In this document: piece after piece, positions 24,276 through 60,825 of the stretch
Position numbering within the stretch: the stretch's first letter is position 1
Layout of the letters: the number at the start of each line of letters is the position of its first letter
Source of the DNA: Prevotella lacticifex
GTDB taxonomy: Bacteria; Bacteroidota; Bacteroidia; Bacteroidales; Bacteroidaceae
NCBI RefSeq assembly: GCF_019973375.1
Contig: NZ_BPTV01000002.1
Location: 124,001 to 188,000 of the forward strand
DNA: 64,000 nt
Direction: 5' to 3'
The notes under the pieces: model-generated
The model's input: only the letters and a program-made list of their open reading frames with translations
Database searches by the model: none
Told to the model about the DNA's origin: nothing
Translations under genes and position numbers: made by a program

Positions 24276-24739
24276 TGAAAATATCAGATTAAGTTAGCAC
24301 TGTGTATACGTAAAAATACACGCAAACGTTTACGTAATTCTTCTTCTGAAGGCTACAAGTGCCGCGACATGCAATAGTAAATTGGCGTATGTTCGAGGAT
24401 TACGGCGTCGCCCTCCTACCCCTACATTAACTGTCGTGCAATTTCATCTTCTCAGATTCCGTTTGTAATAATAATTCAAATCGCAATCGAATCTTTTCTG
24501 CTTCTGCTACGCACTGACTCACAGCCACTTACAAAGCAAGGCCATTTTACGTTGCGAAACGGTCCATTTAAGGCTGCAAAACGGTCGGTCGTAAGACCGA
24601 ATCCTTTATTTCTTAGACGGCAACTAACCCTGCTACCGTTCCTGCTAACGACCATCGTCTATTGGTGGTTTCCGGACGTCTACAAGCGCAACCTAATCCC
24701 AGGGGGGGTGTATGGATTTTTTGCGGCATCAGCGGTTTT

Positions 24740-40782: not shown

Positions 40783-41982
40783 TTATTTTGATGGACATAT
40801 TGCGCCTTTCACCTTCATATATAAAGAGAAAACGCCTATTTTAAACATAAAAGGTTTAATCTTTGAAAGCACTTTATGTTTCAAAGAACAATCCAAATAT
40901 TTACGCTCAACTTCATCCAATGGCATAGTATTCAAATCCTCAAAAAACTTATTACGTCTAGGATTTACAGGAACCAAGTTCTTTATCATGACTCCATCTC
41001 TTTTTATAATAGCATTAATTTCAGATGGATGACAAATAAAATCAGTTTTAATTTCTTTGAAGACAGAAGCCCCATGTTCTGTATGTATAAATACATTAGT
41101 TGCACCTTTTGAAGAAAATTCAGAAGATACAGAAGGAGCATCCCAGCAATCAAATATAGTAAAATCACTCACTCGATTGATGGTTTTGAAATGACATTGA
41201 TAACAGCTCGGACGACTACAAATATTCTTAAAATAGAACCGGAGCATCATATCAGATTCCTTTCCTTTGTGATATTCCTTATCAGAATCGGAGAACCAAA
41301 TAGATGCAGTACTATAGTTATAACCATAGAATTTATCTCTTGATCGGTAATCCTTCGGTTTACTTCCAATTTGAGCAGAGTGATATGCCAAATACTTCCT
41401 TAGTAACAGTGGACTTGGTGTGCCGTGGCACACCAAGTCCACTGTTACTAAGTTGTCATATTTCCGCCCACGCAGAAAATGATAAAGCCCAGAAATCTGA
41501 CAAGGAGTACCACTAAATACAACGACTCGCCCTTGGGCGAGAAAATTTTTCGCTTGCGAATAACAGTCACCAATAAGACTTTGTACATACTTGGAACCAC
41601 GAAACTTCTTACAGCCATCCAATGTTTCAGCATAAGAATGTCTCAATTCCATATCTTCACCAAAGGCAGCTCCAAAGACAACACCTCCATGCTCTATTGC
41701 CCATTTAGATATAGCTGTAAAAAAGCCGCCAGAAGTACTTGTACGTAACACTTCTGTATCCTTTTGCTGTACCACGAAACTCTCAGGCAACGTATCGTCC
41801 ATTTTCGGCTTTTGCAAAGGACACACCTTTTCGCATAATCCGCAATTAATACACTTATCCTTATCAACATGAGGATAGCGGAATCCTTCCTCATCCTCTT
41901 TCATCGTGATACATTGTACAGGACAAACATTCTTGCATGCCCAGCAACCACAACATTGACTTTTGTTTTTTATATCTATCAT
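40783..41982 (-). CDS. F420H2 dehydrogenase-beta-like polysaccharide protein
   Basis: 399 residues. The N-terminal 2x 4Fe-4S ferredoxin part (CCGCWACKNVCPVQC, CINCGLCEKVCPL) is followed by a Coenzyme F420 hydrogenase/dehydrogenase beta-type domain with FSGTPCQISGLYHFLRG and VDLVCHGTPSPLLL. Such proteins recur in Bacteroidales exopolysaccharide loci, probably as a redox enzyme acting on a sugar intermediate. The DNA encoding VTVDLVCHGTPSPLL is a near-perfect palindrome (separate entry). It is paralogous to the gene at 55050. Confidence 0.85.
   Translation of the reverse strand: MIDIKNKSQCCGCWACKNVCPVQCITMKEDEEGFRYPHVDKDKCINCGLCEKVCPLQKPKMDDTLPESFVVQQKDTEVLRTSTSGGFFTAISKWAIEHGGVVFGAAFGEDMELRHSYAETLDGCKKFRGSKYVQSLIGDCYSQAKNFLAQGRVVVFSGTPCQISGLYHFLRGRKYDNLVTVDLVCHGTPSPLLLRKYLAYHSAQIGSKPKDYRSRDKFYGYNYSTASIWFSDSDKEYHKGKESDMMLRFYFKNICSRPSCYQCHFKTINRVSDFTIFDCWDAPSVSSEFSSKGATNVFIHTEHGASVFKEIKTDFICHPSEINAIIKRDGVMIKNLVPVNPRRNKFFEDLNTMPLDEVERKYLDCSLKHKVLSKIKPFMFKIGVFSLYMKVKGAICPSK
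41399..41452. repeat. perfect 26-bp inverted repeat inside a coding region
   Basis: Left arm 41399-41424 (CTTAGTAACAGTGGACTTGG, then TGTGCC) and right arm 41427-41452 are exact complements around a 2-base centre (GT). It lies in the conserved motif of the F420H2-like gene. Both strands therefore read nearly the same peptide, VTVDLVC(H/R)GTPSPLL. Confidence 0.95.
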
Positions 41983-41984
41983 CC

Positions 41985-42739
41985 TTAATCTCTATATAAA
42001 TCTTCAAGATATCGCTTATGGTATCCTGACCTACGCAATAACTTATTTCTAAAATAATTCTGATACCACCAGTCAAGCAGAGGACAATAAAATCTAGACC
42101 ATTTGAATACCTTACGAATCACATTCTTAAAAGAGTCTTTATGGCAATGCCAAGACCCCATGAAATGATGAACAGAATAACCACCATCCTTACCAAAAGT
42201 AGGAACTTCGAAATAGTATCTCGGATATATAAAACCATTAGGTATAAACTCTCGAAACTTCCCATTCAACCTAAAGTTAGGATAATTGGCAAGCGTAAAA
42301 TCATTAAATATACTATTGTTTGGAATTCTTCTATCAAAAGCCATTGTCTCATACATATCAAGCAATCCTTTGATATATGGATGCTTAGGGGCAGCCATTA
42401 TCACAGCCGTAGAAATGGCACACTCATACATATAGCCTAATACGAGGTCTGCCTTGAAAAAATTATCAGGAAAGGGCTTTTTTACCTGAATATCCGTATC
42501 CATATAGATACCGCCATATTCATAAAGCCTCTTCAAGCGATAATAATCACTAACATGTGCCCAAGACCGCTGCTCATAAGCTGGCTTAACATATTCCGTC
42601 TCGTCAAAACTACAATTGGTCTCATTCCATTCTACAATCTTACCCCCCCTATCTGTCCAAAAGACTCTATGCATTTTTTCGCCATATAGTCTTTCGGAGC
42701 ATTGCCAAACCAGCAATAATGAATAATCTTTGGTATCAT
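41985..42739 (-). pseudogene. GT32-type glycosyltransferase, out of frame at a G7 tract (phase OFF)
   Basis: ATG 42739, two bases after the upstream stop, opens MIPKIIHYCWFGNAPKDYM, the classic start of capsular GT32 transferases. At the G7 tract (42649-42643 on the coding strand) the frame runs to a TAG at 42634-42632. The rest of the enzyme lies in the next frame: KIVEWNETNCSFDETEYVK, then YRLKRLYEYGGIYMDTDIQV with the DxD sugar-nucleotide motif. Eight G (GGG GGG GGT AAG) would fuse both parts into a normal protein of about 251 residues. The abrupt loss exactly at the homopolymer suggests a phase-variable gene currently off. Confidence 0.85.
42643..42649 (-). repeat. poly-G tract (G7), putative phase switch
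   Basis: Seven C on the plus strand (G on the coding strand). Lengths of 8, or 5 or 11, restore the GT32 reading frame. Confidence 0.8.
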
Positions 42740-42741
42740 CG

Positions 42742-43905
42742 CTATAAATTCTTTAAAGCACTATGTAAATAATCCATCGATGACTTTCTATAGGCATTCA
42801 ATCTAGCATCCACCCCATCGAAGGAACCTTTATAGCTTATGACATCTTCAACAGTCTTATCGTTTGTCATTCTTCTTTCCTCTAAACCTGTGATATGAAG
42901 CAAATTATCGATACGAGTATTGGTACTCTGCTTTGCACCTTCCGCAAATCGGCTGAACGTAAAAAAGTTCTTCTTATACAAGATAGAGAAAACTGAACAA
43001 TGGAAAGAATCAGTAAATACATACTCCGCATTGCGAATGTAATTAAGGAATTCACGAGGACCAACGTATGGTGCCTCGTCAGCAAATCCCTCATCCGAAG
43101 GAATATAGTCATCTAATTGCTGAAGAGCTACAATCTTGAATCCTGTCTTTTCCTTTACTCTTTTAATGAATTCCCTTTGCGAAGGATTGTCTCCCAAAAG
43201 ATAGCAAAATATGTATTTGCCATTTGTTAAAGGCTCTTGTTGCTGGATTCCCAACCATTGGTCACCAGTAAAGAGAAGTGTGGGATCAAGAACAACTGGT
43301 ACATCTCTGCCTGTTAACGATTTGACTATATCACATGCAGACTGTTCTCGCATGGCGATAAAGTTGAATCGGTTCATGAACTTTTTGTTTTTGCCAACTT
43401 GAAACCAAGGTATTTTTTTTACCCCTATACTTGTGGAATATGCGATTTTTCTGATATTATCAGGTACCCACTCCAGCGTGTAGTAACCATGTTCTACACT
43501 GTCAGTTCTCCAAAGTTGATCACTACCAACAAGGAATGCAGAGAAGTCGTTGGCCATGGCTTCAAGTTCTGTTCTGTTCCGGCAAAACTTAGATGTATGA
43601 AAATAACACTTTGCAAACTCGTCGAAAGCAGCTTCTCGCATAGACCATTTTTCCCCGAAATCAGGATGCTCTCTGATAGCCTTTTTAAGGCGCTCTTTGC
43701 CTAAGAACATTTTCCAGTCACCAATAAGAATTTTCTTTAGGTAATAGAGATATTTGTTCTCAACCATGTAATCACGTGGACGCTTACAAGATATAGTCAA
43801 GTAAGGAAGCCCCATCTTTTGCATTATCATCTCTGTGGCATACGCCTGAAGCATACTACCATAATTATGATGGAAGTAGCAAGTTACTAATCCTATTGGT
43901 TTCAT
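42742..43905 (-). CDS. polysaccharide pyruvyl transferase family protein
   Basis: 387 residues. N-terminal LVTCYFHHNYGSMLQAYA, then FLVGSDQLWR, YSTSIGVKKIPW, VVLDPTLLFTGDQW and YVFTDSFHCSVFSILY. This order is typical of the polysaccharide pyruvyl transferase family, which forms pyruvate ketals on sugars with phosphoenolpyruvate. Some members act differently. The start overlaps the stop of the upstream GT2 gene by four bases. Confidence 0.85.
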   Translation of the reverse strand: MKPIGLVTCYFHHNYGSMLQAYATEMIMQKMGLPYLTISCKRPRDYMVENKYLYYLKKILIGDWKMFLGKERLKKAIREHPDFGEKWSMREAAFDEFAKCYFHTSKFCRNRTELEAMANDFSAFLVGSDQLWRTDSVEHGYYTLEWVPDNIRKIAYSTSIGVKKIPWFQVGKNKKFMNRFNFIAMREQSACDIVKSLTGRDVPVVLDPTLLFTGDQWLGIQQQEPLTNGKYIFCYLLGDNPSQREFIKRVKEKTGFKIVALQQLDDYIPSDEGFADEAPYVGPREFLNYIRNAEYVFTDSFHCSVFSILYKKNFFTFSRFAEGAKQSTNTRIDNLLHITGLEERRMTNDKTVEDVISYKGSFDGVDARLNAYRKSSMDYLHSALKNL

Positions 43906-44918
43906 TTTGATATCTTAGATTTTATCATCAAGAGATGATGTCTCAACCATCTCATAGATAGAGCATATGATTTCATCAAACAATAATTAGAAGACAAGGA
44001 TAAAACTATCTTTTTTCCAAGAGTTACGTTTTTCTTACAACCCGGAGCAATACATTTCAATTGAGTACGGGCATATTCATAATAACATTTAGATACAGCT
44101 CCACTAGTTTTTGCACTGATCATCAAATCATCTGCTATCTGACGCATTCTTCCACAATCGACAGCATACCTATACATGTTACTTTTATCTTCAAAAAAAG
44201 ACTTAACTAAATTCATTGACTCCCAATTCTGATCATGTTTACTTATAGTAAAGCTATTAGAATAAGCACCCTCGTTGGAACAATCATAATAATATAATGG
44301 TTCTGTTAGATTGACTATTTTCTTAGCATAGTATAGCAATATAGGAACAACCTGGTAATCTTCACCTTGATTGCATCCTTGTTTACACTTTATGCCATTA
44401 TCAACATACAAAGAACGTCTTATCAATTTTGCCCAAATACTATTTGAATTTTTGCGAGACAAAACTGTAAGACAATATTCTTCAGGATTACTGAATGAAG
44501 CATATCTAGTTATCTTAGAAAAACCAGGGCTAGCCTTTTTAAAATCAATGACTACAATATCAGCATCGAATTGTAATTGTTTGTCAATAGCCTTACGAAC
44601 TATTTCCTTATCTACATAGTCATCGCTATCCACATGCATAATAAATTCTCCAGTAGCATTAGCAACTGCCGTATTTCTTGCACCTGCCAAGCCTTTATTT
44701 TGTGCATGGTTAATGATTCGAACAAAAGGCTTTCGATTAGGATAGCGATTTATGACACGTTCAAGTACATTGATACTATCGTCTTTAGTACAGTCATTTA
44801 CAAATATATACTCTATATTTTGATAAGTCTGTTCAAAAAGAGAAATAGCACAACGTTCAATGAATTTTTCAACCCCATATATGGGAATTAAAATCGAAAC
44901 TTTAGGAGTTTGATTCAT
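43902..44918 (-). CDS. family 2 glycosyltransferase
   Basis: 338 residues, GT-A fold. It opens KVSILIPIYGVEKFIERC, then FVNDCTKDDS, NKGLAGARNTAVANATGEF and the metal site MHVDSDDYVD. The basic, hydrophobic C-terminus is probably membrane-associated. It overlaps the 3' end of the GT14 gene and is coupled to the pyruvyl transferase gene. Sugar specificity unknown. Confidence 0.9.
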   Translation of the reverse strand: MNQTPKVSILIPIYGVEKFIERCAISLFEQTYQNIEYIFVNDCTKDDSINVLERVINRYPNRKPFVRIINHAQNKGLAGARNTAVANATGEFIMHVDSDDYVDKEIVRKAIDKQLQFDADIVVIDFKKASPGFSKITRYASFSNPEEYCLTVLSRKNSNSIWAKLIRRSLYVDNGIKCKQGCNQGEDYQVVPILLYYAKKIVNLTEPLYYYDCSNEGAYSNSFTISKHDQNWESMNLVKSFFEDKSNMYRYAVDCGRMRQIADDLMISAKTSGAVSKCYYEYARTQLKCIAPGCKKNVTLGKKIVLSLSSNYCLMKSYALSMRWLRHHLLMIKSKISK

Positions 44919-45781
44919 TCTTTATCTTATTAATCAACATGTTAATTATCTCCTCATCTACATTTTCATCAAACTTTCTTGCAAAAAGTTTGTTAGAATG
45001 TGACAAGTAATCGTAATCTTCTTTGCGCCAAATATATGGTCGACCTCGTTTCCAGTCAATCTCTCGCAAACAACCTTCAAATTCATCAGTCAATTTGTAA
45101 ATGCGATTTCTGAATTCCGAGTTATAAGCGAATGTTTGTTTGTAAATTTCATCAGGACAATAAGCATACTGATACATTTGCAGAATCTCGTCTTTCCTAT
45201 CAAGCAATGAAAGAATAAAATCATGAGTAACACTAACCCAATTGCATCCTGCCTGAAATTCATAATCAGGTTGTTTCATTTTATAGCCAACAAGAATCTG
45301 AAGCTTATTATAAAGCTGTCGCATCTTCTGCAAACCACCTCTGATATATTGATTAGGGAATCTCATATACTGCATAAACAAATTATGACAGTAAACACGC
45401 TCTCTCATATCCCACTTTGGGCTATATCCAATATATTCAAAGTTCTTACCATCAAAAAAATTATGAATATAGTTTTGGGAATGAAGAGGTAAATCGATAC
45501 CTGAAATCAGATGATAGTAAGCGTGCTCGACCTGAGAAGCCAATTCAAACAAATTCATCTCAGCCTGAATAAGGCTGACATTTCCCCAACGCACATCAAC
45601 TCTCTCGCAGAATTTACAATGAGAATATTTCATATCGGGGGGGGGTAATCTTTTTTATATCCAAATTTGACTTCAAATCCAAATGGATGTATATGTCATT
45701 GCGAGGGTCATCCAAGAGAAGCAAAAGCTTGTGTAATTGCTTCAAATTGGAATGAGCGATTATTAAATATGCATGTTTCAT
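44902..45781 (-). pseudogene. GT14 (core-2/I-branching-like) glycosyltransferase, out of frame at a C9 tract (phase OFF)
   Basis: ATG 45781 opens MKHAYLIIAH, continues LLLLDDPRNDIYIHLD and reaches KKITPP at the C9 tract (45645-45637). The frame then stops at 45616-45614. The remainder is in another frame from 45633: VDVRWGNVSLIQAEM, then YYHLISGIDLPLHSQ, typical of the GT14 branching N-acetylglucosaminyltransferase family. Eight C (ACC CCC CCC GAT) would join the halves into about 293 residues. Apart from the tract no lesion is seen, supporting a reversible off state. Confidence 0.88.
45637..45645 (-). repeat. poly-C tract (C9 on the coding strand), putative phase switch
   Basis: Nine G on the plus strand. 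A length of 8 or 11 restores the GT14 frame. Confidence 0.85.
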
Positions 45782-45790
45782 CATTACATT

Positions 45791-46723
45791 CTATGGCTCT
45801 ATTTTAATAAAACTCTCATCTAGCAAATCAGACGTTCTACCATCATTATACCAACGATTAGGAGAAATGACTATTTTGTTCTCATTGCGTGACAAGTATT
45901 GGGCCCACCAACTAAAAGAACTATTGGATATAATAAAGTGTTTGCAGCTGTACATCAAACGCAGTTTCTCCCATACGGGATCAACACCTCGTTCATAATA
46001 GCAGACGCATCCATCAACTTTAATGTTTTCTTTGACCCAATTTATGTCATCTGAAAAGAATATAAAGGTAGGATTATCCACCTTATCTTTCATCAAAGCG
46101 ATGGCTTTTAGAAAATATGATTCCTGACAAACTGCATGTAGTTTTTTTGTTGTTGGATTAGAGAAATAATCACCACGACGAATAGAAATACACACAGAAT
46201 TCGTATTTGCAATTATCTCGTATAGTTCGCTATTACAATCTATAGGATCAAACTTAGGCGTAAATTCCTTTTTAATAATGCTTTTTATAGAATCAAAATG
46301 TTCTTTATTCTCAAACCATCCGTCGAGCAATACATTTTTTGTCTTAGGAGTCTTATAGAGAAAATTGTTTTTGTATGCCAACAATAGGCCTGACCAATTT
46401 AAGATCTTATATAAAGGATTGGTCTTGGATAATTTTTGCCTTGTTGCCTTACAATATCCCTTTACAAGAACTTGAAGGTAAAAAGTCAAATGTTGCACTA
46501 AACTTCCCATGTTGGGAATCATTGCCTTATCTGTTTTTCTATAATCCCGCACATTGAAATCTTCAAGCCAATCTCGCCAACCATCATTAACGTCCTTGCC
46601 TTTGAAGGACTGAAAGCCAAGCAACAGTTGTTCTTTATCGCCACGATCGTGAAGAATCTTTCTTGCCGCAGCGTATCGAAACAACTGATTACCAAGGCGT
46701 CCTCTAACTTCTAATAATATCAT
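45791..46723 (-). CDS. GT11-type alpha-1,2-fucosyltransferase
   Basis: 310 residues. N-terminal GRLGNQLFRYAAARKI, central ISIRRGDYF (the basic donor-binding motif of GT11) and C-terminal FIISNSSFSWWAQYL. These are the three family motifs. The enzyme transfers fucose from GDP-fucose to galactose in alpha-1,2 linkage, making H-antigen-like ends. It lies ten bases after the GT6 gene. Length is normal and the frame intact. Confidence 0.92.
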   Translation of the reverse strand: MILLEVRGRLGNQLFRYAAARKILHDRGDKEQLLLGFQSFKGKDVNDGWRDWLEDFNVRDYRKTDKAMIPNMGSLVQHLTFYLQVLVKGYCKATRQKLSKTNPLYKILNWSGLLLAYKNNFLYKTPKTKNVLLDGWFENKEHFDSIKSIIKKEFTPKFDPIDCNSELYEIIANTNSVCISIRRGDYFSNPTTKKLHAVCQESYFLKAIALMKDKVDNPTFIFFSDDINWVKENIKVDGCVCYYERGVDPVWEKLRLMYSCKHFIISNSSFSWWAQYLSRNENKIVISPNRWYNDGRTSDLLDESFIKIEP

Positions 46724-46733
46724 AGAATAGTGT

Positions 46734-47534
46734 TTATAGATACCACGTCAATGCACGTAAGTTCCGCTTTATTGAATTGCAGACCTTCCGCCAAAGCGTT
46801 TCGGGAGGAATTACCTTTCTGAAACTCTCATCTATCTTAACTTTATTACGAAATATCATCTTAGGTTCAAAATCAGGCTCCCAATCCTCTGGCCAACAAT
46901 ATTCCTTACCCAAAATTTTGCAATCATGATCCCTAAAATATCTATTGATATGCGATTCGTCATGAACCTTAGCGATAATGCCATGACCATAATCCGTTCT
47001 GATGTTTTTAGCCAAGGTTTTTATCATCTTTAAATACTCAACAGAGGTGCCACCATTCACTCCGCCCATGAAATAATGATATGGTTTCTTCTCGTAAGGA
47101 GATATATAGGCTAAAGATTTCTTGTTGTGCTCATAGGGCCAAAAAGCTGGAGAATGGGTGTGGAAACCTTTAGACACATAAATCCATGGCCACAAAGCTC
47201 CTACTAAACCAGACTCATCGGGCAAAATCTCGACACCGACTTTTTGTAGAAACAACGAATTGCTATTAAAGAAATAGATGAAATCAAACGCTTTAAGCTG
47301 ATCCTCCACTTCTAGAAAATACTCAAATCTGAACAAGGAATCAGCAGGGAATCCTTGACACTTTCTGTAAGTTACAGTTACATTATCTTCTGTTGATAAA
47401 TTAACATCATCACTAAAGACAAAATAGTGTTTATATGCATCGATAAGCAAGAATTTCTCCGCTGACTCATAAAAACCTTTAAAAAACTGATTGTACTTGC
47501 CTGTGCAAATGTACAAAATTGCAATTTTCTTCAT
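46734..47534 (-). CDS. GT6 glycosyltransferase (blood-group A/B transferase family)
   Basis: 266 residues. Family motifs are KIAILYICTGKYNQFF, FDFIYFFNSNSLF, HYFMGGVNGGTSVEYLKM and VHDESHINRYF. In animals the family has DxD. Bacterial GT6 proteins have NxN, and here N90-S-N92 is seen. Known bacterial members add Gal or GalNAc in alpha-1,3 linkage to fucosylated acceptors. With the adjacent GT11 this suggests a blood-group A or B-like structure. The start overlaps the GT2 stop by four bases. Confidence 0.9.
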   Translation of the reverse strand: MKKIAILYICTGKYNQFFKGFYESAEKFLLIDAYKHYFVFSDDVNLSTEDNVTVTYRKCQGFPADSLFRFEYFLEVEDQLKAFDFIYFFNSNSLFLQKVGVEILPDESGLVGALWPWIYVSKGFHTHSPAFWPYEHNKKSLAYISPYEKKPYHYFMGGVNGGTSVEYLKMIKTLAKNIRTDYGHGIIAKVHDESHINRYFRDHDCKILGKEYCWPEDWEPDFEPKMIFRNKVKIDESFRKVIPPETLWRKVCNSIKRNLRALTWYL

Positions 47535-48574
47535 TTTCCCTTTATTTTATTTTTCATTTTACAAATGTATGACAAAACTTTAAGCATAAAGAAAGAATTA
47601 TATCGAATAGACTTCACAAAAAGTTTGTTTTTAAAAGACAAATTAGCATACGAAGAATATTCAACATCATTACTCCACACCTCATCACATAGAATCTTTT
47701 TAATAAAGTTCTTATAATCCTTGCTGGTAAAAAATTGCTTATAGTTTTTAATAATATACAAAGTTATAACCAACAAATATCTATCCGTAAAAGAGTGAAA
47801 ATTCTTAAAACTCTTAGAAAGAAACTTTTTATTGGCATAGAGATATATCTTTTTAGAAGAGTCGAATATAAAAGGGCGAAACTTAGCCGACAGTGAGTCC
47901 GGATTAAAATCATAATTATACAGAACATCATCTATAAAAACTACTCTATTAGCCTCGGTAAGAAAATCAATGTGGAACATCAAATCTTCTGAAATATATT
48001 CTCGCTCTGTCTTAAATAATATATGATGATCCTTTATGAAATGAAGGTCATACATAGAATGCCAAACAGACATATTTATAGAACCATCTAAGCGGTTAAG
48101 GTTATAATTAGAGAACATCCCTAAAAGAACCTCTTGTACCTCTTCATTTTCATAGAAATACTTTGGTACCGATTGGATAACATCATTATTGACTCCATGA
48201 ATAGTATCTACTCGACGATAATTACAATATGCAACCTGAGATTTAGAATCAACAAGAGCTTTCAGCAGCTTAGAACCCATATCCGGCTCTATGAAATCGT
48301 CGGAATCAACAAATATCACAAAATCGCCACAAGCAACCTCAATACCACTATTCCTAGCCATGCCTAAACCTTCGTTCTGTTTATGAACGACCTTAATGCG
48401 CCTATCTTTTTGTGCGTAATCGTCACAAATCTTAGGGCAACTATCGGGCGAACCATCATCAACAAGTATTATCTCTATGTTGTTGTAATCTTGGTTGACG
48501 ACGCTATCAATACATCGAGACAACTGCTTTTCTACCTTATATATGGGTAATATGTATGAGATTTTATATGACAT
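47531..48574 (-). CDS. family 2 glycosyltransferase
   Basis: 347 residues from ATG 48574, chosen because the DUF1919 gene stops at 48577; an in-frame ATG at 48586 lies before that stop. GT-A motifs: YKISYILPIYKVEKQLSRC, ILVDDGSPD, NEGLGMARNSGIEVA and VIFVDSDDFIEPD. AT-rich. It adds a sugar to the repeat unit, specificity unknown. Confidence 0.88.
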   Translation of the reverse strand: MSYKISYILPIYKVEKQLSRCIDSVVNQDYNNIEIILVDDGSPDSCPKICDDYAQKDRRIKVVHKQNEGLGMARNSGIEVACGDFVIFVDSDDFIEPDMGSKLLKALVDSKSQVAYCNYRRVDTIHGVNNDVIQSVPKYFYENEEVQEVLLGMFSNYNLNRLDGSINMSVWHSMYDLHFIKDHHILFKTEREYISEDLMFHIDFLTEANRVVFIDDVLYNYDFNPDSLSAKFRPFIFDSSKKIYLYANKKFLSKSFKNFHSFTDRYLLVITLYIIKNYKQFFTSKDYKNFIKKILCDEVWSNDVEYSSYANLSFKNKLFVKSIRYNSFFMLKVLSYICKMKNKIKGK

Positions 48575-48576
48575 AA

Positions 48577-49247
48577 TTATATCCATTTTTGGGATGATGC
48601 ATATTTCAACAAATATTTGTAAAACACATGAGCTTCATGATATGCATCACCAACATTATTACAATTTGCATACTCTTTCATAAAAACAATACCATTATGG
48701 TGAACAACCTTAGAGGAAAAGAATATCTTTTTCTTATATGGCAAATTAGAAAAACTCGCCATATCATTTTTAGTGCAGAGATTTTGATCTACACCTATAA
48801 CTAACAGATCAGAGAAATTAATTCTTTTACATCTTCTATGCCATTTTTCCTCAGCTTCTTTTTCTGAGCCGTAATGCAAGAAATGAATTTCAACTTTCCC
48901 GTCTAAGAGGCCAATTGGATAGGGGGGGGGGTAAGAAGCCTACGTTGCTCTCCAAGTTGATAACGTGAATGTTTCACAAACGAGAGTTTAGCTGTATGAG
49001 TATAATACTTCAAGTGTTTCAAGAATTCTAAATAATCAGGCATCATAAAATACAAGCCCTCAGTAGGAGAGGTGTATTGTAGTTTCAAATCTTGCATGAT
49101 TCTTCCAGCAAAACAATTAGATGTAATAACACTTGTCGTGGGTTTTATCAACCTTTTCAACTTTCTAAAATAAACAGCACGTTGAGCATAGCGAACATAG
49201 CCTAAAAGCTTACACTTCGCACGATAAAGTAAATTATCTTTTTTCAT
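48577..49247 (-). pseudogene. DUF1919-type exopolysaccharide protein, out of frame at a C10 tract (phase OFF)
   Basis: The N-terminal frame (ATG 49247) has SVITSNCFAGRIMQDLKL, then YTSPTEGLYFMMPDYLEF and ends in LLTPPPIQLAS after the C10 tract (48931-48922). The C-terminal part lies in another frame: YPIGLLDGKVEIHFLHYGSE, then EAEEKWHRRCKRINF. With eight or eleven C (ACC CCC CCC TAT) both join into a normal DUF1919 protein of about 223 residues. The family is found in capsule loci and its chemistry is not established. It overlaps the upstream acyltransferase by 14 bases. Confidence 0.85.
48922..48931 (-). repeat. poly-C tract (C10 on the coding strand), putative phase switch
   Basis: Ten G on the plus strand, the longest tract in the window. 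A length of 8 or 11 restores the DUF1919 frame. Confidence 0.85.
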
Positions 49248-49956
49248 TTCTTCTTTGCTTTACATAACTTATAAACTCCTCAAACCCATCAAAAACCTTT
49301 TTGTGGGTTTTAAGCCAACTATCAAAACTGGGGGGGGCAAATACTCGATCGTAAGGATAATTATATTCTTTGTAGTTAGTTCTATCTACGAAACAAGGAT
49401 AATCGTCATAAAAATCCTCTACTAACGGTTCACGACCTGAATCTAATATCGCATTAGCATATTCTATAGCTTCGTCAACATATAGTTTGGAGCGCTTCTT
49501 CATGTAATCCTGATAAGTACCAACCACTTTAGCAGGCACACCCACAGCCACAGAGCCAGAAGGAATAGACTTAGTAACAATGGATCCTATACCTATAATA
49601 CAATTGTCGCCGATAGAGACACCTTTGCAGATGGTTACATTCTCTCCCAACCAAATGTTGTTACCCAAAACAACCTTAGCATGTGAAGGATAGAACTTAG
49701 CGTCACTCTCCACGAAGCACCAACTGGCCCAATCGTGAGTTAATATCTTTGTACCAGAATGTAAAAACACGTGCTTACCAATTTCGACAAGTTCTGGTCT
49801 TGAATAATCTATTAGTATGTCACGATAATCATTTACGATAGTACCCTCACCAATTTTAACTCCCTTTCGCCTCAAAGTTTCTATATACTCAGAACATTTC
49901 TGAGCCATACTCTTTTGACGAAAGACATGTTTTTTAATAAACCACTTAATGTTCAT
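49234..49956 (-). CDS. hexapeptide-repeat acyltransferase, in frame at a C8 tract (phase ON)
   Basis: 240 residues. A left-handed beta-helix is visible as hexapeptide repeats (IGEGTIVNDYRDILID, VVLGNNIWLGENVTICKG, IGDNCIIGIGSIVTKSI) with the catalytic-type HDWASW region. It is an O-acetyltransferase-like enzyme that probably decorates a sugar. Near the C-terminus the frame passes through C8 (49337-49330, GCC CCC CCC AGT, Ala-Pro-Pro) and continues into a sensible FDSWLKTHKKVFDGFEEF. One base more or less would cut the last 30 residues. It is the only clear ON member of the tract set. Confidence 0.9.
   Translation of the reverse strand: MNIKWFIKKHVFRQKSMAQKCSEYIETLRRKGVKIGEGTIVNDYRDILIDYSRPELVEIGKHVFLHSGTKILTHDWASWCFVESDAKFYPSHAKVVLGNNIWLGENVTICKGVSIGDNCIIGIGSIVTKSIPSGSVAVGVPAKVVGTYQDYMKKRSKLYVDEAIEYANAILDSGREPLVEDFYDDYPCFVDRTNYKEYNYPYDRVFAPPSFDSWLKTHKKVFDGFEEFISYVKQRRNEKR
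49330..49337 (-). repeat. poly-C tract (C8 on the coding strand), in frame
   Basis: Eight G on the plus strand. The length matches the inferred ON length of the other tracts. Confidence 0.8.
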
Positions 49957-49968
49957 AGTGTAAAGAAG

Positions 49969-51108
49969 TTATTTGTCCCAAACAAATGCGCACCCAAAAT
50001 ATGGCATACTTCCTATATTCTTTATGAAAGAATAGAAAAAGAATTGCAAAAACAACAAAATGCCATAAGCTATTTTAATATTCCTCGACTTAATATTTTC
50101 ATAAACAATAGCGTACAAAACGGGGGTTATATACAAAAACCATTGTTCAATTCTATCATAGATTTCAAAATCTCCACGTATGTTATCAATAATAATTGCA
50201 AGATAAGAAAACCAAAAGCAAATTCCCACTTTTGCATTATTTTTCATTGCGTAAAAGCCAAAATAAATTGCAGGCAAGTAGGTTCCAAGCATTAATGTGC
50301 GTGCAATAAGCGAAATTTGACGTTGTCCTGAAAAGTCAGCAATACCCTCTGTGGTTAACCATCTATCGCTTAGGTAACCTGCCCCATGAGCTTCTGTTGA
50401 AATATCAAACATAAATATGTAACCTGCTAACTCATTCATATAGGAGCTCTTCCAAAAAAAGAACGTAAACAAGAATAAAGCTATCAAGATGTATGGCTTC
50501 TTTGTAAGTGTAAGTTTTCTGAAGAAAACTTGCACTTTACCCAATTTGCTGATTTCATAAAGCGCAATAACAGCTAAAGGAATTATAGCAGAATAATGGA
50601 TATTGGCTGCAACTAACGCAAACGCACCAGCGACAATCCACTTCTTACGCCATACTTGATCGATGCATAATATAACAAATGGGACCGCCAAATACTGTCG
50701 AATTAAGTTCTCTGCGGCCAAATTGGTAATAATAAAGAATAAGGGTAATGACAGATAAGCACTATTTCTAAAGTTCTTTACTAATTTCAGATAGGAAATT
50801 ATCAACAAGGCAGAATATAGTACAAATGCAACCCAATAGGACAGGCCAGAAGCTTTAAACAACGAAATCCAACCTAAATATAAAGGCTCGCTATAATCGG
50901 CATACGAATAGCTTATTAAATCTTGACAATAATGCGGATAATCAACGCCTCTATTCCATCTTAATCCTTCAACTAAAGAATAAACGATAACTAAAGGAAA
51001 CGCGGTTTTCCAATAATTATATTTGGATTTCGAAATAATGGCACCACATATGATACAGGTCAACAAACAAAAAGACTGTAATGTCCAATATATGAATATA
51101 TTTCCCAT
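49969..51108 (-). CDS. EpsG-like polysaccharide polymerase
   Basis: 379 residues, ten or more membrane segments. The N-terminal part has GLRWNRGVDYPHYCQDL followed by EPLYLGWISLF and NLIRQYLAVPFVI, the pattern of EpsG-family proteins. They are the proposed polymerases of many exopolysaccharide loci. This is probably the Wzy-type enzyme joining repeat units at the periplasmic side. AT-rich, four bases after the GT4 gene. Confidence 0.82.
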   Translation of the reverse strand: MGNIFIYWTLQSFCLLTCIICGAIISKSKYNYWKTAFPLVIVYSLVEGLRWNRGVDYPHYCQDLISYSYADYSEPLYLGWISLFKASGLSYWVAFVLYSALLIISYLKLVKNFRNSAYLSLPLFFIITNLAAENLIRQYLAVPFVILCIDQVWRKKWIVAGAFALVAANIHYSAIIPLAVIALYEISKLGKVQVFFRKLTLTKKPYILIALFLFTFFFWKSSYMNELAGYIFMFDISTEAHGAGYLSDRWLTTEGIADFSGQRQISLIARTLMLGTYLPAIYFGFYAMKNNAKVGICFWFSYLAIIIDNIRGDFEIYDRIEQWFLYITPVLYAIVYENIKSRNIKIAYGILLFLQFFFYSFIKNIGSMPYFGCAFVWDK

Positions 51109-51111
51109 GTT

Positions 51112-52209
51112 TTAATTGGCTCTTTGGGCTTTTAAAGCATTAAACCACTTATGCACATTTTCTATATGCAATTTTTGACTTAGAACCAGCGAGTGTTGTT
51201 TCATACCGCCAACTTTATCTTTATGTGTACAAAGATAGTTGATCGCATCTACAATACTCTGCGTTTCATTCTTACAAAAAGCAGCATTCTGTTCATCACA
51301 ATAATCTCTAATGCTACCAACATCTGTAACAATAAGTCCTAATCCCATAGCTAAAGACGTTGTTATAACATTGCTTCCAACAGTATCATCCATAATGTTA
51401 AGAGACAAATCTGCTTCGCCCATAAGGTCGCGCAACTCATTCTCAGGCAAGAAACCTTTTAGTTCCACATTAGGAATATCTTTGAACAAATCATCAACCT
51501 TTTTAAGCCCTCTGCAGATAACCCAATTTACATCTGTACATTTTCTTACCACATCAACCAACAGCGAATAATCTCTCTGCATCATACCCATAGAAATAAT
51601 CGTTAGGCGATCACCAATAACCTTAGGCATTGAGGGGGCATGATAATAATCGGAATCAACGTAATGGAAGCCGGTGCTGAGCTTTGACGCCGGAACGTTC
51701 TTCTCAATAAAATATTGGGTGAGGGAGGTACCAAGAGTCAACATTACGTCAATGGGTTTCGACCATTCATATACAATATTCGGGGTCTTTTTGACTATTG
51801 ACTGCTCAAAATAACTCTTCGTTAGATGAGACAAAGCATATATGCGGACAAACGGGAATTTTTTCCTAATGTACATCGCCAAACTATACTGAGGCTCATC
51901 AGGCAAAAGATACTCTAACAAGAATACCTCATCCCCTTCCTTCAACTTCTCGAACATGGGCTGGCATAATGACAAATAATTCTGCAAGCATGTGTGCTTT
52001 TTATAATACATGCCCTTGTAGTATCTATATTTCCCTATCAACTTTCGCTTAAGCCAGTTTCCTGAAATCGGCTTAGAAGACTTCGGACTATCCTTCACAA
52101 AAATCTCGTACTCCTCCGGCCACTTCTCCTTAAGCATCTCACACATGTGAACCATACCTGCATGATTGCCATGTGTACTCTGCCAATCTTGTACTATTAA
52201 ATATTTCAT
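51112..52209 (-). CDS. GT-B glycosyltransferase (family 4-like)
   Basis: 365 residues. It opens MKYLIVQDWQSTHGNHAGMV. The C-terminal Rossmann half has ISMGMMQRDYSLLVDVVRK, VELKGFLPENELRDLMGEAD and SNVITTSLAMGLGLIVTDVG. This resembles GT4 transferases acting on lipid-linked repeat units, specificity unknown. Its start overlaps the pyruvyl transferase stop by four bases. Confidence 0.82.
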   Translation of the reverse strand: MKYLIVQDWQSTHGNHAGMVHMCEMLKEKWPEEYEIFVKDSPKSSKPISGNWLKRKLIGKYRYYKGMYYKKHTCLQNYLSLCQPMFEKLKEGDEVFLLEYLLPDEPQYSLAMYIRKKFPFVRIYALSHLTKSYFEQSIVKKTPNIVYEWSKPIDVMLTLGTSLTQYFIEKNVPASKLSTGFHYVDSDYYHAPSMPKVIGDRLTIISMGMMQRDYSLLVDVVRKCTDVNWVICRGLKKVDDLFKDIPNVELKGFLPENELRDLMGEADLSLNIMDDTVGSNVITTSLAMGLGLIVTDVGSIRDYCDEQNAAFCKNETQSIVDAINYLCTHKDKVGGMKQHSLVLSQKLHIENVHKWFNALKAQRAN

Positions 52210-53321
52210 TGTAATTGCTGTTTTAAGAAATTCATAGACTTTGTTTTCAAATGGATAATCTTACTATCAACATTTGGCCAATCTATGCTTGTTTTCATTT
52301 TTACATCAATATTCGCTCCTTCAACAACCATTCTATCCAAAAGTCCCAACATAGAAAGTAAGTTTGTAAATCTGTCCGCACCTCTATTTTTATTAACCAC
52401 TACCAAAAATGGTTTATGAAAGATGATAGAGAATACCATCCCATGAAAAGAATCTGTAATAACAAATTCTGCATCTCTAATATCAGTTAACCATTCTTCT
52501 ATGGAAATCAATGGTTCATTGCCTTTTTGAATATCAGAAATACCATATAGCTCTTTATCCAAATTTTGAGAAACCTCACTCAATATAGCATTTATCCGGT
52601 CATTCCTATCCAAGACATAATAGAAGATTTTTCCTTTTGACTCAGAAGCTTTTAAAGGAAGGACTTTTTGATAATCTTCAGCAGCTAAAAGCATTGTCGG
52701 ATCTAAAACGACACCTTCCACATTAGCTTTCCAACCAAAAGTTGATACTACAGATAGTCCAGATTCTTCTCTTAAAGAAACAGCATCAAAAAGACCAATA
52801 AGCTTTTTGCAATGCTTTATCTGTTCATCAGAATACTCGGGCTTATCTGTTCCAAAAGAAGCTGCATAAGCAATTCTCTTCACATTCCATCCTTCTGTAA
52901 AATCAAGAAAATAGTTCTTTATATCTGGCACATAGATAGCTCGCCATACTTGATCGCTACCAACAATATATGCGTCGAATTTCCCTTCACAATACTTGCA
53001 CAACTCCTCTTTACTATATAAATATGGAGTTTCAGGCGCAATGTATTGATTAACAAACTTCAACATATTTTTCCCTTTATGTCGAAATTCTGCTTCTACA
53101 TCATAAAGAATTGGATGTTTCTTACAGCACAGAACTGTTTTTACTATACCCTTTAAGGCATACTTAATCTTAAAAGAACAAGAAACCTTAGGCTTATCAT
53201 GCCTTCTCATAATCATTGTTGGCTCATGCCCCAACTGTCTTATAACAGTCATTAAAGCATAGGCTTGCAAGTAGCCGCCATAATTATTATTGAAAGGCAA
53301 TGTTAATATTCCTATACGCAT
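52206..53321 (-). CDS. polysaccharide pyruvyl transferase family protein
   Basis: 371 residues with the same family order as the paralogue at 42742: LTLPFNNNYGGYLQAYALM, AYIVGSDQVWRAIYVPD, YAASFGTDKPEYSDEQ, VVLDPTMLLAAEDYQ and FVITDSFHGMVFSIIF. It may add pyruvate ketals. Two members in one locus suggest two decorated sugars or divergent functions. It follows the broken acyltransferase. Confidence 0.85.
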   Translation of the reverse strand: MRIGILTLPFNNNYGGYLQAYALMTVIRQLGHEPTMIMRRHDKPKVSCSFKIKYALKGIVKTVLCCKKHPILYDVEAEFRHKGKNMLKFVNQYIAPETPYLYSKEELCKYCEGKFDAYIVGSDQVWRAIYVPDIKNYFLDFTEGWNVKRIAYAASFGTDKPEYSDEQIKHCKKLIGLFDAVSLREESGLSVVSTFGWKANVEGVVLDPTMLLAAEDYQKVLPLKASESKGKIFYYVLDRNDRINAILSEVSQNLDKELYGISDIQKGNEPLISIEEWLTDIRDAEFVITDSFHGMVFSIIFHKPFLVVVNKNRGADRFTNLLSMLGLLDRMVVEGANIDVKMKTSIDWPNVDSKIIHLKTKSMNFLKQQLQ

Positions 53322-53322
53322 T

Positions 53323-54245
53323 TTAATTGATTATCTTCTTTGAAATAGGCTGCAACCATTTTACATACATAAATGTAAATATGAAAACACAACCAACCAT
53401 CAGTAACATATATACAAGAGGATTAGAAGTAAGCATATATAAATTCTGTAATAATGCAAGTTGGAATAGATAAAAGCAAAGACTATTTACTCCAATATAG
53501 TTCAGCACAGATGACTTATAACGAACAAACCTGATTAAGAACAAAACAAAAAAGCAAAGCAATAACGCTGTAACAAATCTCCAATGCAAATCTTGCATCT
53601 TCCAAAAACATGGAACAAACAACATTGACAATAGAAGCTGTAACTTTGTATTAAGTCTTGATTTACAAAGTGCAACAATCATTCCCATCGGAAAACATTA
53701 TACACTTGTATACCAAAAATCAGGCAAAAACTTGCTACTTATAACATAATATATCACTGACACGAAAGTTACCATTCCCACTTTACACCCTCTATTTACA
53801 TTAAGTTTGAAGATTAAAAATGTAACAATATAAGTCAATACAATGACTTTGAAAAACCAAGTCGTTGTATGAGGTATTGTCAACGTTAGAAAGTCGATTA
53901 AATTGCCCCCCGAATTCATTATTTCGCATCATTGGAATTGAGGTCAACATATAAGCAACTATAAAGGCGCACCACATTTTCAGCAATCGCTTCCATAAAT
54001 ATGAGGCAGGAAGGATTTCCTTGAATGCCATAGAATGATAAAGGCCATATCCTGACATAAAAAAGAACAATCCCGTTCCTAAATATCCCCCAGGAGAAAG
54101 TAAAATACTAACATAAGGGATACAACAACCCATTTGTATTAGCTGGAACATATATGTGATGAAACAATATCAGCAACATACATAGTCCTCTTACCTCATA
54201 GGTATTGTTTTTACTACAAAATTTCGTATAACTCAGTACTCTCAT
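53323..54245 (-). pseudogene. acyltransferase-3 family protein with G6 tract and other lesions
   Basis: ATG 54245 (overlapping the upstream remnant's TGA) opens MRVLSYTKFC, then EVRGLCMLLILFHHIYVP. A frameshift near 54075-54095 moves to the frame with YLGTGLFFFMSGYGLYHSM. A second shift at the G6 tract (53911-53906) moves to NLIDFLTLTIPHTTTWFF; five or eight G would keep it in frame. A third lesion is an in-frame TAA at 53700-53698 before CFPMGMIVALCKSRL. Family members transfer acetyl groups to sugars across the membrane. With several lesions this copy is probably dead, not just switched off. Confidence 0.8.
53906..53911 (-). repeat. poly-G tract (G6 on the coding strand) at a frameshift
   Basis: Six C on the plus strand. 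GAA TTC G(5 or 8)C AAT would join both halves of the acyltransferase, again a length equal to 2 modulo 3. Confidence 0.6.
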
Positions 54246-54580
54246 TTCAAAATTTGCTTAAGTATTCTTTTTATTTTTAATTTACACCATTCTATAAAGG
54301 ATAATGAATAACACTTTTGAATTGATTTTTCTACAGTCATACCTCTATTGAACATCCTAAAGAATCGTTTTCTAAAAGGATTATCAGGAATCATATCACC
54401 AAAACCAGGGTTGAACTGTTTGGCTATCTTTAAATCTGATTTCCAAGTTTCAAAGACTCAAATGTAGCATTTCCTCTCCCTGAATTAATCAGTACAAGAC
54501 TACAACCTTTATCATCATCAAATGATGGATTAATGGTATTGATACTCCAAAAGTCTGCCAATGTCAAGTCGCTGTGGCTT
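54242..54580 (-). pseudogene. C-terminal remnant of an F420H2-like polysaccharide gene
   Basis: In one frame SDLTLADFWSINTINPSF, then DDDKGCSLVLIN matches the intact paralogue at 55050 (SDITLADYWGIDQ, DDDKGTSLLIV). A frameshift follows near 54450. The rest (FNPGFGDMIPDNPFRKRFF, ending IKRILKQILK) is in the next frame. The N-terminal part is missing and is replaced by an IS66-type sequence at about 54578. The TGA overlaps the start of the next gene (ATGA), as expected in a former operon. Confidence 0.75.
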
Positions 54581-54687
54581 TTATAGTTGACACCATACTC
54601 GGAGCAGAACTCCTTCAGATCCTTAGTCTCACTGCATAGCTGATACAGATCCTAGACTTCCTGATAATTGACTTTTTCTTTCGGCAT
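54575..54687 (-). mobile_element. IS66-type TnpA N-terminal fragment
   Basis: MPKEKVNYQEV, stop (TAG at 54654-54652), then DLYQLCSETKDLKEFCSEYG and VNYK resemble the small helix-turn-helix TnpA protein of IS66-family elements. A TACCTTTG promoter-like word lies just upstream of its ATG (near 54720). It runs straight into the F420H2-like remnant, so it marks an old insertion plus deletion. IS66 assignment is by eye. Confidence 0.5.
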
Positions 54688-54901
54688 AACTTTTCTGTTT
54701 TAAAGTTGATGCCGCAAAGGTAATATTTTTATGTGCCGGTGTCAAGGCGGAAAATAAGACGTTTACGGGAAATGCGCTTGATACATACTTACTATCTTGC
54801 TTTATAAATTGTTAGCGGCATCACTGGAGAGGAAAGAAGTTAATTCTTCAATTTCCTTGGGAAAGGTTAGACGATACTTGCGTATATTGGCTTTCAGTTA
54901 C

Positions 54902-54982
54902 TTATCCAATCAAGGTAATCTTCATTAGATATTTTTTCCAACCTTTGTCTTTATCTCTGAAAGATATGGCTTTCACATTCAT
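54902..54982 (-). pseudogene. small F420H2-like gene fragment
   Basis: VKAISFRDKDKGWKKY matches the segment ISDIKFRDKPQGWKRF of the intact paralogue at 55050. The region between it and 54690 shows no gene. It is likely the other side of the gene broken by the IS66 insertion. Confidence 0.45.
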
Positions 54983-55049
54983 CTTTCTATCTATTATTGG
55001 AACTACCCCCGGCTTTTCCGGGTGATATGATGTTTCCTCTTTTTTAGAA

Positions 55050-56246
55050 TTACCCCCCCCCTAAAAGATGGAGTAGGATAATCTTTGCCTTATGTCTGCA
55101 CCAATAATAAAAATTTTTTATCCTCTGTTTTGTGCTTGGCCTCAATTCCTTATCAATAAGCTTGAGCAAATCTTTCGTGGAATCTAACTTATTGAAGAAG
55201 TCGGCTCTCTTAGGATGGGGTATTGCGCTCTTTTCAATGGCTGGATTAAACCTAAAAGCGTCTTCGTAAGTAGACTCTGTATAAGTTGTCTGAGAGAAAT
55301 CCAACGCTTGCCGGCCTTTCTCAGTATGGACAATCAAGAGACTCGTCCCCTTGTCATCGTCCATATTGGGATGAACCTGATCTATTCCCCAATAATCTGC
55401 TAAGGTGATATCGCTCTTGCTCCGTTCACACTTTGCCTGACAATTATAGCATGACGGACGAAGAATCATATTGGAAAGGAAAGCTCGCATATAGTGGTTG
55501 TCACCGTTATACGAGCTAATTGTATAGGATTTGTCTGACTCGTTGTAGCTCAAATTGAAGTTGAAGCGCTTCCAGCCCTGGGGCTTGTCCCGGAACTTTA
55601 TGTCAGAGATGGCACGCTGGCCAGCTTCTGAGACTTCATCAAGATACATTTTCCATACCTTAGGACTGGGCACGCCGTGGCATACAAAGTCAACGGCAAG
55701 CAGATTGTCGTAATCCTTACGTAAATAGTGTCTCAGTCCTGCTATCTGACAGGGAGTACCACTGAACAACACTTTACGTCCTTCTTGCAGATATTTCTTG
55801 GCAAGTGCGAGAGAACTGCCCATTTGCGCCTGCAGATATTTGCTGCCGCGGAAAGCAGCGAGGTCTTCAATGGTTTCGGTCGGAACTATTTCAACCTGCC
55901 AATCATCAGTGAACCTGGCACCGAAGACAATGCCGCCGTCTTTTATCACTTTCTCTGCCAGAATGGTGAACATACCGCCGGAGGAGCTATCTCTCCTTAT
56001 CTCCTCGTTTTTATTGAGGGCTGCATAGACGCTCTGAGGCTTTTCTTCCTTTGATGGATTATGGAAGGGACAGACTCTTACACAGGCCTGACAATCTATG
56101 CAAATACTGGCATCTACCTTAGGATAGAGAAAGCCTTCGGCATCTTCTGCCATAGTGATGCATTGCTTGGGGCATACGGTCTTACAGGCTGTACATCCGC
56201 AGCACGCTTGGTTGCCATTATTTTCTATAAGATTATGAACGGTCAT
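55050..56246 (-). CDS. F420H2 dehydrogenase-beta-like polysaccharide protein
   Basis: 398 residues. Two 4Fe-4S motifs (CCGCTACKTVCPKQC, CIDCQACVRVCPF) are followed by the F420 hydrogenase/dehydrogenase-beta-type domain with FSGTPCQIAGLRHYLRK, VDFVCHGVPSP and SDITLADYWGIDQ. Probable redox enzyme acting on a sugar in polysaccharide synthesis. The gene ends in a G9 tract (LLGGG, stop). One base less would extend it by about 50 residues and one more by about 17. It is the first gene after the flippase. Confidence 0.87.
   Translation of the reverse strand: MTVHNLIENNGNQACCGCTACKTVCPKQCITMAEDAEGFLYPKVDASICIDCQACVRVCPFHNPSKEEKPQSVYAALNKNEEIRRDSSSGGMFTILAEKVIKDGGIVFGARFTDDWQVEIVPTETIEDLAAFRGSKYLQAQMGSSLALAKKYLQEGRKVLFSGTPCQIAGLRHYLRKDYDNLLAVDFVCHGVPSPKVWKMYLDEVSEAGQRAISDIKFRDKPQGWKRFNFNLSYNESDKSYTISSYNGDNHYMRAFLSNMILRPSCYNCQAKCERSKSDITLADYWGIDQVHPNMDDDKGTSLLIVHTEKGRQALDFSQTTYTESTYEDAFRFNPAIEKSAIPHPKRADFFNKLDSTKDLLKLIDKELRPSTKQRIKNFYYWCRHKAKIILLHLLGGG
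55053..55061 (-). repeat. poly-G tract (G9 on the coding strand) at the stop codon
   Basis: Nine C on the plus strand directly before the TAA of the F420H2-like gene. Length changes alter only the C-terminus. With G8 the frame reads GGG GGG GGT, the same codons as the inferred ON state of the other G tracts, and continues to 54902. Confidence 0.75.
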
Positions 56247-59400: not shown

Positions 59401-60825
59401 TTACAGAGAACTTATATCTTCTCTATGTGATACAGAATTTAGAGCTTTTTCCAATTTATCCAACAGTGAATAAGCAAATTCTATTTCTTTAGATGAAACA
59501 GGAGGTAAGCCGGCATGACCATGAGAGGTTTGGTGTAAAGCTACTTTTTGCATTAGCCTTAGTTCAACAAGAATTGGTCGAATTCGCTTAAGGAAATCGT
59601 TTTTCCGAAAATCCTCTATCTTGTTCTTTAGTCTCAATGCCAAATGATCATATACTCCATTGGTCACATTTGCATATATCTCATCTATTAAATTGTAAAT
59701 GTCTTTACACTTGTGATTAGCTAACACATCCATCGAAAGATAGACTTGCTTATTCGGACTACACAATCTATCCAGCAAACTTCTTGATTCTTGGAGTTCA
59801 CCAACATTATTAATATTTGCAAGTTGGTATACTATCACTTCAAATCTTCTTCTCAGTTCGTTACCCACTTCAGTGTCCGTCAAATGTTTATCTTCCGCTT
59901 CTTTTTTTATATCTGCGGTAGTTTTTTCATCTGACTTAATCAGTTCGAGAGAACCAGATATTTTGCATAATTGATAGTATAACCATGGCTTATCCGTATT
60001 CACAATATTATTTGCAATATATCTGAATAGATTAAAGAAGCCTATATTGTGTGTAAAGACTATCTTCTGCATTCCTTTTGTCCTTTTTAGTAAGAATTTC
60101 ATCATGAAAGTCCTATTAGTCTGGTCAAGGCTATTGAAACAATCATCAAGGACAAGTAGGGCTTTCTGATTGTCATTTCTGAAAAGTGTGATGCATTCAA
60201 TTAATATAATGAATTTTACTATGTGCAAAATCGATTCATTGAAATAATTGTTCAAATTGCTGTACTTTGGGACGTTTTGGCTATCACTGGACAAAGAGCA
60301 TCTACCTTCATTATCCATTTTGTTTAGGTGGACATCACCACACATAAAGTCCTCATTCAGGTCTTTGTTAGTTTGTTCTACTATCCAATCTACCAAATCT
60401 TTGAATAACCAGGGATGATTCTTATCAGCTGTCGTATAGTATGCATTATTTACTAAATCAAGAATTTTCAAGTCATCGGAGTTGTCAAGATTGTCGTATG
60501 AAATCATAAAAACTTTTTCAGAGCCTACGTTATGAAGGCAGTAATTAACCTCATCTATTGACAAACTAATAGCTTCAGTCATATTATGCTTGTAATCGTC
60601 TATTACTCTCTTTGTTTCCTCGTCTCTTTGCTCTTCCACCACATTAGCCCTTATCCTCTCTGATAGTATCCTGCCGCGAAAGTAGAACAATTTTATAGCT
60701 TCAAATATAGAAGTCTTACCGATACCGTTCTCTCCATACACAAGCATATTATTATTGTCAAGACTCATTTCAAAGGCCTTTCCAGCTTCAAATGCCTTGA
60801 AGTTTTCAATCTTTAATGTATTCAT
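59401..60825 (-). CDS. AAA/ABC-type ATPase of a putative defence cassette
   Basis: 474 residues. Walker A GENGIGKTSI (31-40), Walker B KALLVLDDCFNSLD (about 221-234) and an H-loop FTHN (about 257-260), as in RecF/SMC-like or OLD-type ATPases. N-terminal MNTLKIENFKAFEAGKAFEM is typical of that group. The coiled arms are short. The C-terminal 200 residues are helical and unrecognised, with no visible Toprim motif. It overlaps the DUF262 gene by four bases (ATGA). Confidence 0.75.
   Translation of the reverse strand: MNTLKIENFKAFEAGKAFEMSLDNNNMLVYGENGIGKTSIFEAIKLFYFRGRILSERIRANVVEEQRDEETKRVIDDYKHNMTEAISLSIDEVNYCLHNVGSEKVFMISYDNLDNSDDLKILDLVNNAYYTTADKNHPWLFKDLVDWIVEQTNKDLNEDFMCGDVHLNKMDNEGRCSLSSDSQNVPKYSNLNNYFNESILHIVKFIILIECITLFRNDNQKALLVLDDCFNSLDQTNRTFMMKFLLKRTKGMQKIVFTHNIGFFNLFRYIANNIVNTDKPWLYYQLCKISGSLELIKSDEKTTADIKKEAEDKHLTDTEVGNELRRRFEVIVYQLANINNVGELQESRSLLDRLCSPNKQVYLSMDVLANHKCKDIYNLIDEIYANVTNGVYDHLALRLKNKIEDFRKNDFLKRIRPILVELRLMQKVALHQTSHGHAGLPPVSSKEIEFAYSLLDKLEKALNSVSHREDISSL

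Follow-up and report, generated by a model that had tools for sequence, protein, structure and literature searches.

Variation of surface glycans shapes the contact of gut Bacteroidales with phage, antibodies and the host, and it is usually credited to promoter inversion. We describe here runs of consecutive G or C (G/C runs) inside the coding frames of a glycan locus of Prevotella lacticifex, which lies in a 64,000-nucleotide stretch of contig NZ_BPTV01000002.1, hereafter the window (G000:C2:124001-188000; the genome is 4.19 Mb in 49 contigs, and G, C and L numbers denote genomes, contigs and loci). Among the closest described systems is the Campylobacter phasome, a set of phase-variable genes with poly-G/C runs from which our threshold of at least 7 is taken (PMC6321876), and the window locus is like it in that the G/C runs are intragenic, reach at least 7, occur several to a genome, lie in many cases in transferases that modify glycans or the surface, and would switch genes by frame shift. 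It differs in its in-frame length of eight, in the coding strand (C in 3 of the 5 window runs of 7-10, namely those of the GT14, DUF1919 and hexapeptide genes, with G in GT32 and FrhB), in its phylum, and in that variation is here predicted rather than recorded. As described for Helicobacter canadensis (PMC2823697), late runs alter the C terminus and do not abolish the protein, which would hold here for FrhB and the hexapeptide acyltransferase; that species, in contrast to ours, has length variation reported at the level of reads. Bifidobacterium breve (PMC9187656) offers a gut commensal with an intragenic G-run switch, although its genes are for pili, its phylum is another and its switch was shown experimentally; Bacteroides fragilis offers capsule variation within Bacteroidales, but by recombinase inversion of promoters (PMC3090145, PMC11868660).

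Slippage has been suggested for one extra C in a 4-C run of an acetyltransferase-related gene of B. fragilis (PMC3090145). Passages on Bacteroides in a 2025 review tie phase variation to inversions, save for one table line on temperature-dependent shifts (PMC11868660), and a term search of the main text of a 99-genome homopolymer survey returned neither 'Bacteroid' nor 'Prevotella'. Among the matches listed, the open-access literature gave no Bacteroidales poly-G/C switch beyond the B. fragilis suggestion, consistent with the view of a first-pass annotation of this DNA that the system is undescribed. The mechanism itself is well documented in Campylobacter and Helicobacter and has been shown in gut Bifidobacterium; what is new here is probably the Bacteroidales case. 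If it is true, a second switch acts gene by gene and surveys restricted to inversions overlook some of the variation; metagenome reads that are already available could put such switching to the test at once.

Excess and placement of G/C runs

Six G/C runs lie in genes of one AT-rich, minus-strand glycan operon (GC content 0.34-0.40 across 42-56 kb), five of them 7-10 long and the sixth of six (Table 1). Their positions are those given by the first-pass annotation, and the sole further run of at least 7 in the whole 64 kb, placed there at 24703, spans 24702-24708; this run carries no gene assignment. No A/T run of at least 9 occurs anywhere in the window. Between positions 30000 and 62500, four runs of at least 8 were observed, with 0.10 expected under a first-order and 0.012 under a second-order Markov model, and five of at least 7, with 0.47 and 0.12 expected; each null comprises 500 simulations from models trained after the runs had been shortened. 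A codon-preserving comparison had been proposed with the original prediction of switching, and in it the 23 intact open reading frames of the locus hold 2 runs of at least 8, while codon resampling gives 0.045 on average and never more than 1 in 2000 resamplings. Two marks of poly-G/C phase variation, i.e. intragenic runs of at least 7-8 and an excess of them over chance, are thus found in the window locus.

Frame breaks at the runs

On the coding strand, the longest open frames that flank each of the six runs join at a run length of 2 modulo 3, which bears out the annotation's proposal that the frame is restored at 8 and that the one in-frame acyltransferase has exactly that length. Run length decides whether the full-length frame is open in the genes for GT32, GT14 (the N half of which is weak by Pfam), DUF1919, the hexapeptide acyltransferase and FrhB, and the coding to either side of the run is sound. 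For the first three of these, flanking frames, Pfam matches and alignments to homologues agree with the earlier description of genes broken at the run with recognisable protein on either side. The N half of GT32 has no Pfam match but does align to an orthologue, that of G074 (44% identity); when the N and C pieces are aligned to it separately, exactly 3 residues are left between them, so that the in-frame length is eight and not five or eleven. Both GT14 pieces align to an intact homologue (L079). The hexapeptide protein is gapless across its run when set against orthologues of G520 (57%) and G004 (54%), in both of which unrelated residues stand in place of the run codons.

The run in the FrhB gene falls where the FrhB core ends; a change in its length would affect a C-terminal extension. 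A paralogue outside the window (G000:C2:207518) carries G8 at the same site, in frame, and continues for 79 further codons; beside the window gene, a remnant of this extension is left in another frame (Table 1), and a further FrhB-like remnant was seen, by eye only, in 54270..55049.

These features suggest a mechanism in which G/C runs of about eight bases in the coding frame would grow or shrink by one base as the DNA is copied. Of the three length classes, one would then allow read-through (the confident cases in the window all fit eight), and the others would lead to a stop within a few codons. GT32, GT14, DUF1919, the hexapeptide acyltransferase and the C-terminal extension of the FrhB-like protein may in this way switch independently, giving many surface glycan forms from one locus. 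Another glycan locus of the genome shows the same design, as do large proteins that mostly look secreted. Judged from sequence, translational phase variation by slipped-strand mispairing, with several capsule-modifying enzymes set independently, is in our view the likely explanation of the locus; length change in growing cells would be expected from it, together with expression of the genes and changes in the surface glycan.

Table 1. Genes and G/C runs of the glycan locus, in window coordinates
Feature	Position	Strand	Remark
GT32-type glycosyltransferase gene, out of frame at run	41985..42739	-	C half PF04488 5.5e-11
G7 run (G on coding strand) after GT32 codon 30	42643..42649	-	
GT14/Branch-type glycosyltransferase gene, out of frame at run	44902..45784	-	PF02485, 6e-13 in C half and weak (0.059) in N half
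C9 run (C on coding strand) after GT14 codon 46	45637..45645	-	
DUF1919 gene, out of frame at run	48577..49247	-	each half matches PF08942 (7.9e-17, 7.3e-26)
C10 run (C on coding strand) in DUF1919	48922..48931	-	
Hexapeptide-type acyltransferase gene, in frame across run	49234..49956	-	PF00132 2.8e-9
C8 run (C on coding strand), late in hexapeptide acyltransferase gene	49330..49337	-	
Acyltransferase-3 (AT3)-like gene, broken in more than one place	53323..54245	-	PF01757 in C part below cut-off (7e-4); no Pfam match in N part
G6 run in AT3-like gene, short for a switch	53906..53911	-	
Remnant of C-terminal FrhB extension, 49 codons in other frame	54270..55049	-	paralogue extension matches 54908-55018, 51% identity, E 7.9e-8
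FrhB/FdhB-like gene (PF04422, PF04432), stops directly after run	55050..56246	-	
G9 run at FrhB C terminus	55053..55061	-	
Glycan genes without long runs: two pyruvyl transferases, two GT2, GT6, GT11, EpsG, one GT4-like	within 42742..53321	-	

The register extends beyond the window: among 15 sites of the genome with runs of at least 8 in glycan or secreted-looking genes, 13 need a length of 2 modulo 3, the exceptions being L042 and L039. Because in-frame runs of exactly eight fit this class by construction, the fair subset is the confident out-of-frame cases; and because longest-open-frame calls can err for runs near a gene start, we counted a case as confident only where homology or long open frames lie on both sides. 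Six cases remain, namely GT32, GT14, DUF1919, FrhB, the AT3 gene at C2:714210 and a large protein at C1:38505, with lengths of 7, 9, 10, 9, 9 and 9, and all six need 2 modulo 3, where chance would give half. L039, which still counts among the 15 sites, was not used as out-of-frame evidence, nor were L034, L044, L120, L185 and the run at L051:14015; an AT3 gene of G010 was rejected as an out-of-frame case, its AT3 match reading open for 331 residues. At L039 2076 (G000:C4:80375), G8 separates a start that resembles a signal peptide from a Big_2 protein of 661 residues; the frame there looks broken and the upstream part is short. At L044 3695 (G000:C1:1976194), G9 ends an open frame of 413 residues that weakly matches group II reverse transcriptases, and another open frame follows.

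The same register is what sequencing or assembly error would produce if the out-of-frame runs were homopolymer miscalls in intact genes. We regard error as the main rival, since true eights everywhere would explain both the register and the finding, unfavourable to switching, that a single base separates every out-of-frame run from a length that can be read through. All six confident cases fit a true eight, five of them being one base off and DUF1919, at 10, two from eight and one from eleven. Error does not, however, create an excess of runs in glycan and secreted-looking genes, and this excess is real; the rest of the window has long open frames (no census of frame breaks was made), and out-of-frame runs recur in the same kinds of gene in other genomes, which may share the source of error. 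On balance we hold this explanation to be unlikely, though it deserves more weight than either of the others considered below.

The AT3-like gene of the locus is a different matter. The first-pass annotation was right that it is broken at its run and elsewhere, but we have dropped it as a switched gene: its run is only six long, there is a second break, and the gene is probably decayed. With the FrhB remnants, which look decayed too, and with most orthologues lacking runs, it speaks for the usual decay of pseudogenes in a capsule locus mixed by horizontal transfer, where the runs would be hot spots by accident. GT32, GT14 and DUF1919 are instead open and recognisable on both sides with breaks that sit on the runs, and nine genes of the genome keep their run in frame, which makes decay a very improbable account of the locus as a whole.

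Runs elsewhere in the genome and in relatives

The genome holds 28 runs of at least 8. Nine are in glycan genes (4 in the window, the FrhB paralogue and 4 in a second cluster), and 6 are in large proteins, five of which have signal-like starts as judged by eye without a program (L039, L043, L045, L046 and L047; L042 has none plainly). Two more, beside a reverse-transcriptase-like gene (L044) and a phage integrase (L048), were excluded from the glycan and secreted-looking counts. The second cluster (C2:697946-717280, 0.5 Mb away) has its runs in genes for AT3, GT2, AT3 and AT3, 1 of the 4 being out of frame, and EpsG, GT2, GT4, hexapeptide and MatE genes as neighbours. Of 50000 uniform placements, 1 produced two clusters of four within 20 kb, 365 at least one such cluster, and 51 four runs within 10 kb; this test is post hoc, the clusters having already been seen, and its null ignores the difference in density between C2 (19.0 per Mb) and C1 (3.4 per Mb). 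Three MutS-family genes are open, of 938, 870 and 609 codons.

Length or frame differs at the same site between copies in two paralogue pairs and in a Paraprevotella clara GT14 homologue, i.e. between genes or species. One pair is that of FrhB. The other comprises two large proteins, which from the run on share 56% identity, with G9 out of frame in one and G8 in frame in the other; before the run their likeness is weak (29% over 80 residues), and the DNA alignment offsets the runs by two columns. The P. clara homologue (52% identity in the C part) is out of frame too, with a G9 in the corresponding segment; it has G on the coding strand where the window gene has C, which hints at separate origins. 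A gene near it with a weak Wzy_C match (below the Pfam cut-off) carries G10 and is out of frame by long open frames. The P. clara draft may carry homopolymer errors too. Long homopolymers can slip in transcription, and programmed transcriptional slippage or ribosomal frameshifting could yield full-length protein from an out-of-frame gene; since one and the same site is in frame in some copies and out of frame in others, we consider this very unlikely and the least probable of the alternatives.

Runs of at least 9 are present in 34 of the 40 genomes searched, our own included. We picked 20 stretches of relatives for such runs, some of them for clustering, and found runs in glycan genes in 4 (L050, L051, L052 and L064). 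Ten run-bearing proteins come from these four. The run clusters of G006 and G004 hold hexapeptide (4), AT3 (2), MBOAT, GNAT-like (match below the Pfam cut-off) and ATP-grasp genes; a further AT3 gene, in frame, is from G010. G098 has a hexapeptide gene with a clear frame break at a G10, and one of G587 may be out of frame at C8. The G074 orthologue of GT32, its closest relative, is itself broken by a G10 at a different site. At L161 (G059:C200), G runs of 8 and 9 at 571 and 1925 are both in frame, the G9 inside the AT3 match and the G8 in the neighbouring frame. Runs at W-G-G motifs in the GT14 relatives L098 and L099 look like natural coding and were rejected as switches, and DUF1919 of G009 and G059, with G7 at a W-G-G coding motif, was left unused; the G059 copy is out of frame but its genome is fragmentary.

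Several observations weigh against phase variation as we read it. The run lengths come from one genome of one strain, their variation within the strain being a prediction, and 11 of the 28 genomic sites have no confident gene on both sides. Among the top orthologue loci for AT3, 29 of 30 have no run of at least 8 (the exception, L161, is in frame), and among the loci fetched the same is true of 27 of 29 for the hexapeptide gene and 28 of 29 for GT32; 29 GT14 loci of the order yielded four runs of at least 7, all in frame. Of 23 distinct runs of at least 9 from eight near-complete genomes of the genus (28 listed, 24 fetched), most lie outside recognisable glycan genes as judged by eye. With most orthologues lacking runs the feature is sporadic, through fast turnover or through being less general than hoped.

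The combinatorial switching of one capsule foreseen by the first-pass annotation thus gains from the excess, placement and register of the runs, from the same-site copies and from the second glycan cluster, and it needs amending in that large, mostly secreted-looking proteins also carry runs and in that runs are sporadic in orthologues. We are evenly divided on a broader proposal, that Prevotella-like Bacteroidales have contingency genes with poly-G/C runs across the genome, each switched on its own, which govern large surface proteins as well as the decoration of the capsule by acyl and glycosyl transfer. In this species almost all of these genes would have eight as their in-frame length, and the set would form a combinatorial layer separate from, and possibly atop, invertible promoters.

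Gene content and surroundings of the locus

The operon comprises genes for two pyruvyl transferases, two FrhB-like proteins, GT2, GT4, GT6, GT11, EpsG, GT14/Branch, GT32, DUF1919, the hexapeptide acyltransferase and the broken AT3. Genes of the GT6 family (NF041524, 9.1e-82; window 46734-47534) and GT11 family (PF01531; 45791-46723) adjoin the run-bearing GT14 gene. Both families include blood-group-like transferases; the capsule might therefore resemble host glycans, and since the locus holds these genes, the switched enzymes may decorate host-like glycans.

A bare listing of inverted repeats between 30000 and 64000 gave 48 pairs with arms at most 1500 apart. The longest, at 41399-41452, has perfect 26-nt arms and a 2-nt loop and lies inside the open frame of the second FrhB-like gene; it is probably a coding coincidence over a conserved stretch, judged by eye. 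Upstream of the operon, at window positions 59401-62474, are GmrSD-type (PF03235) and SMC/AAA ATPase genes, possibly for defence, and the FrhB paralogue at G000:C2:204000-212000 (L041) is flanked by open frames that resemble them by eye.

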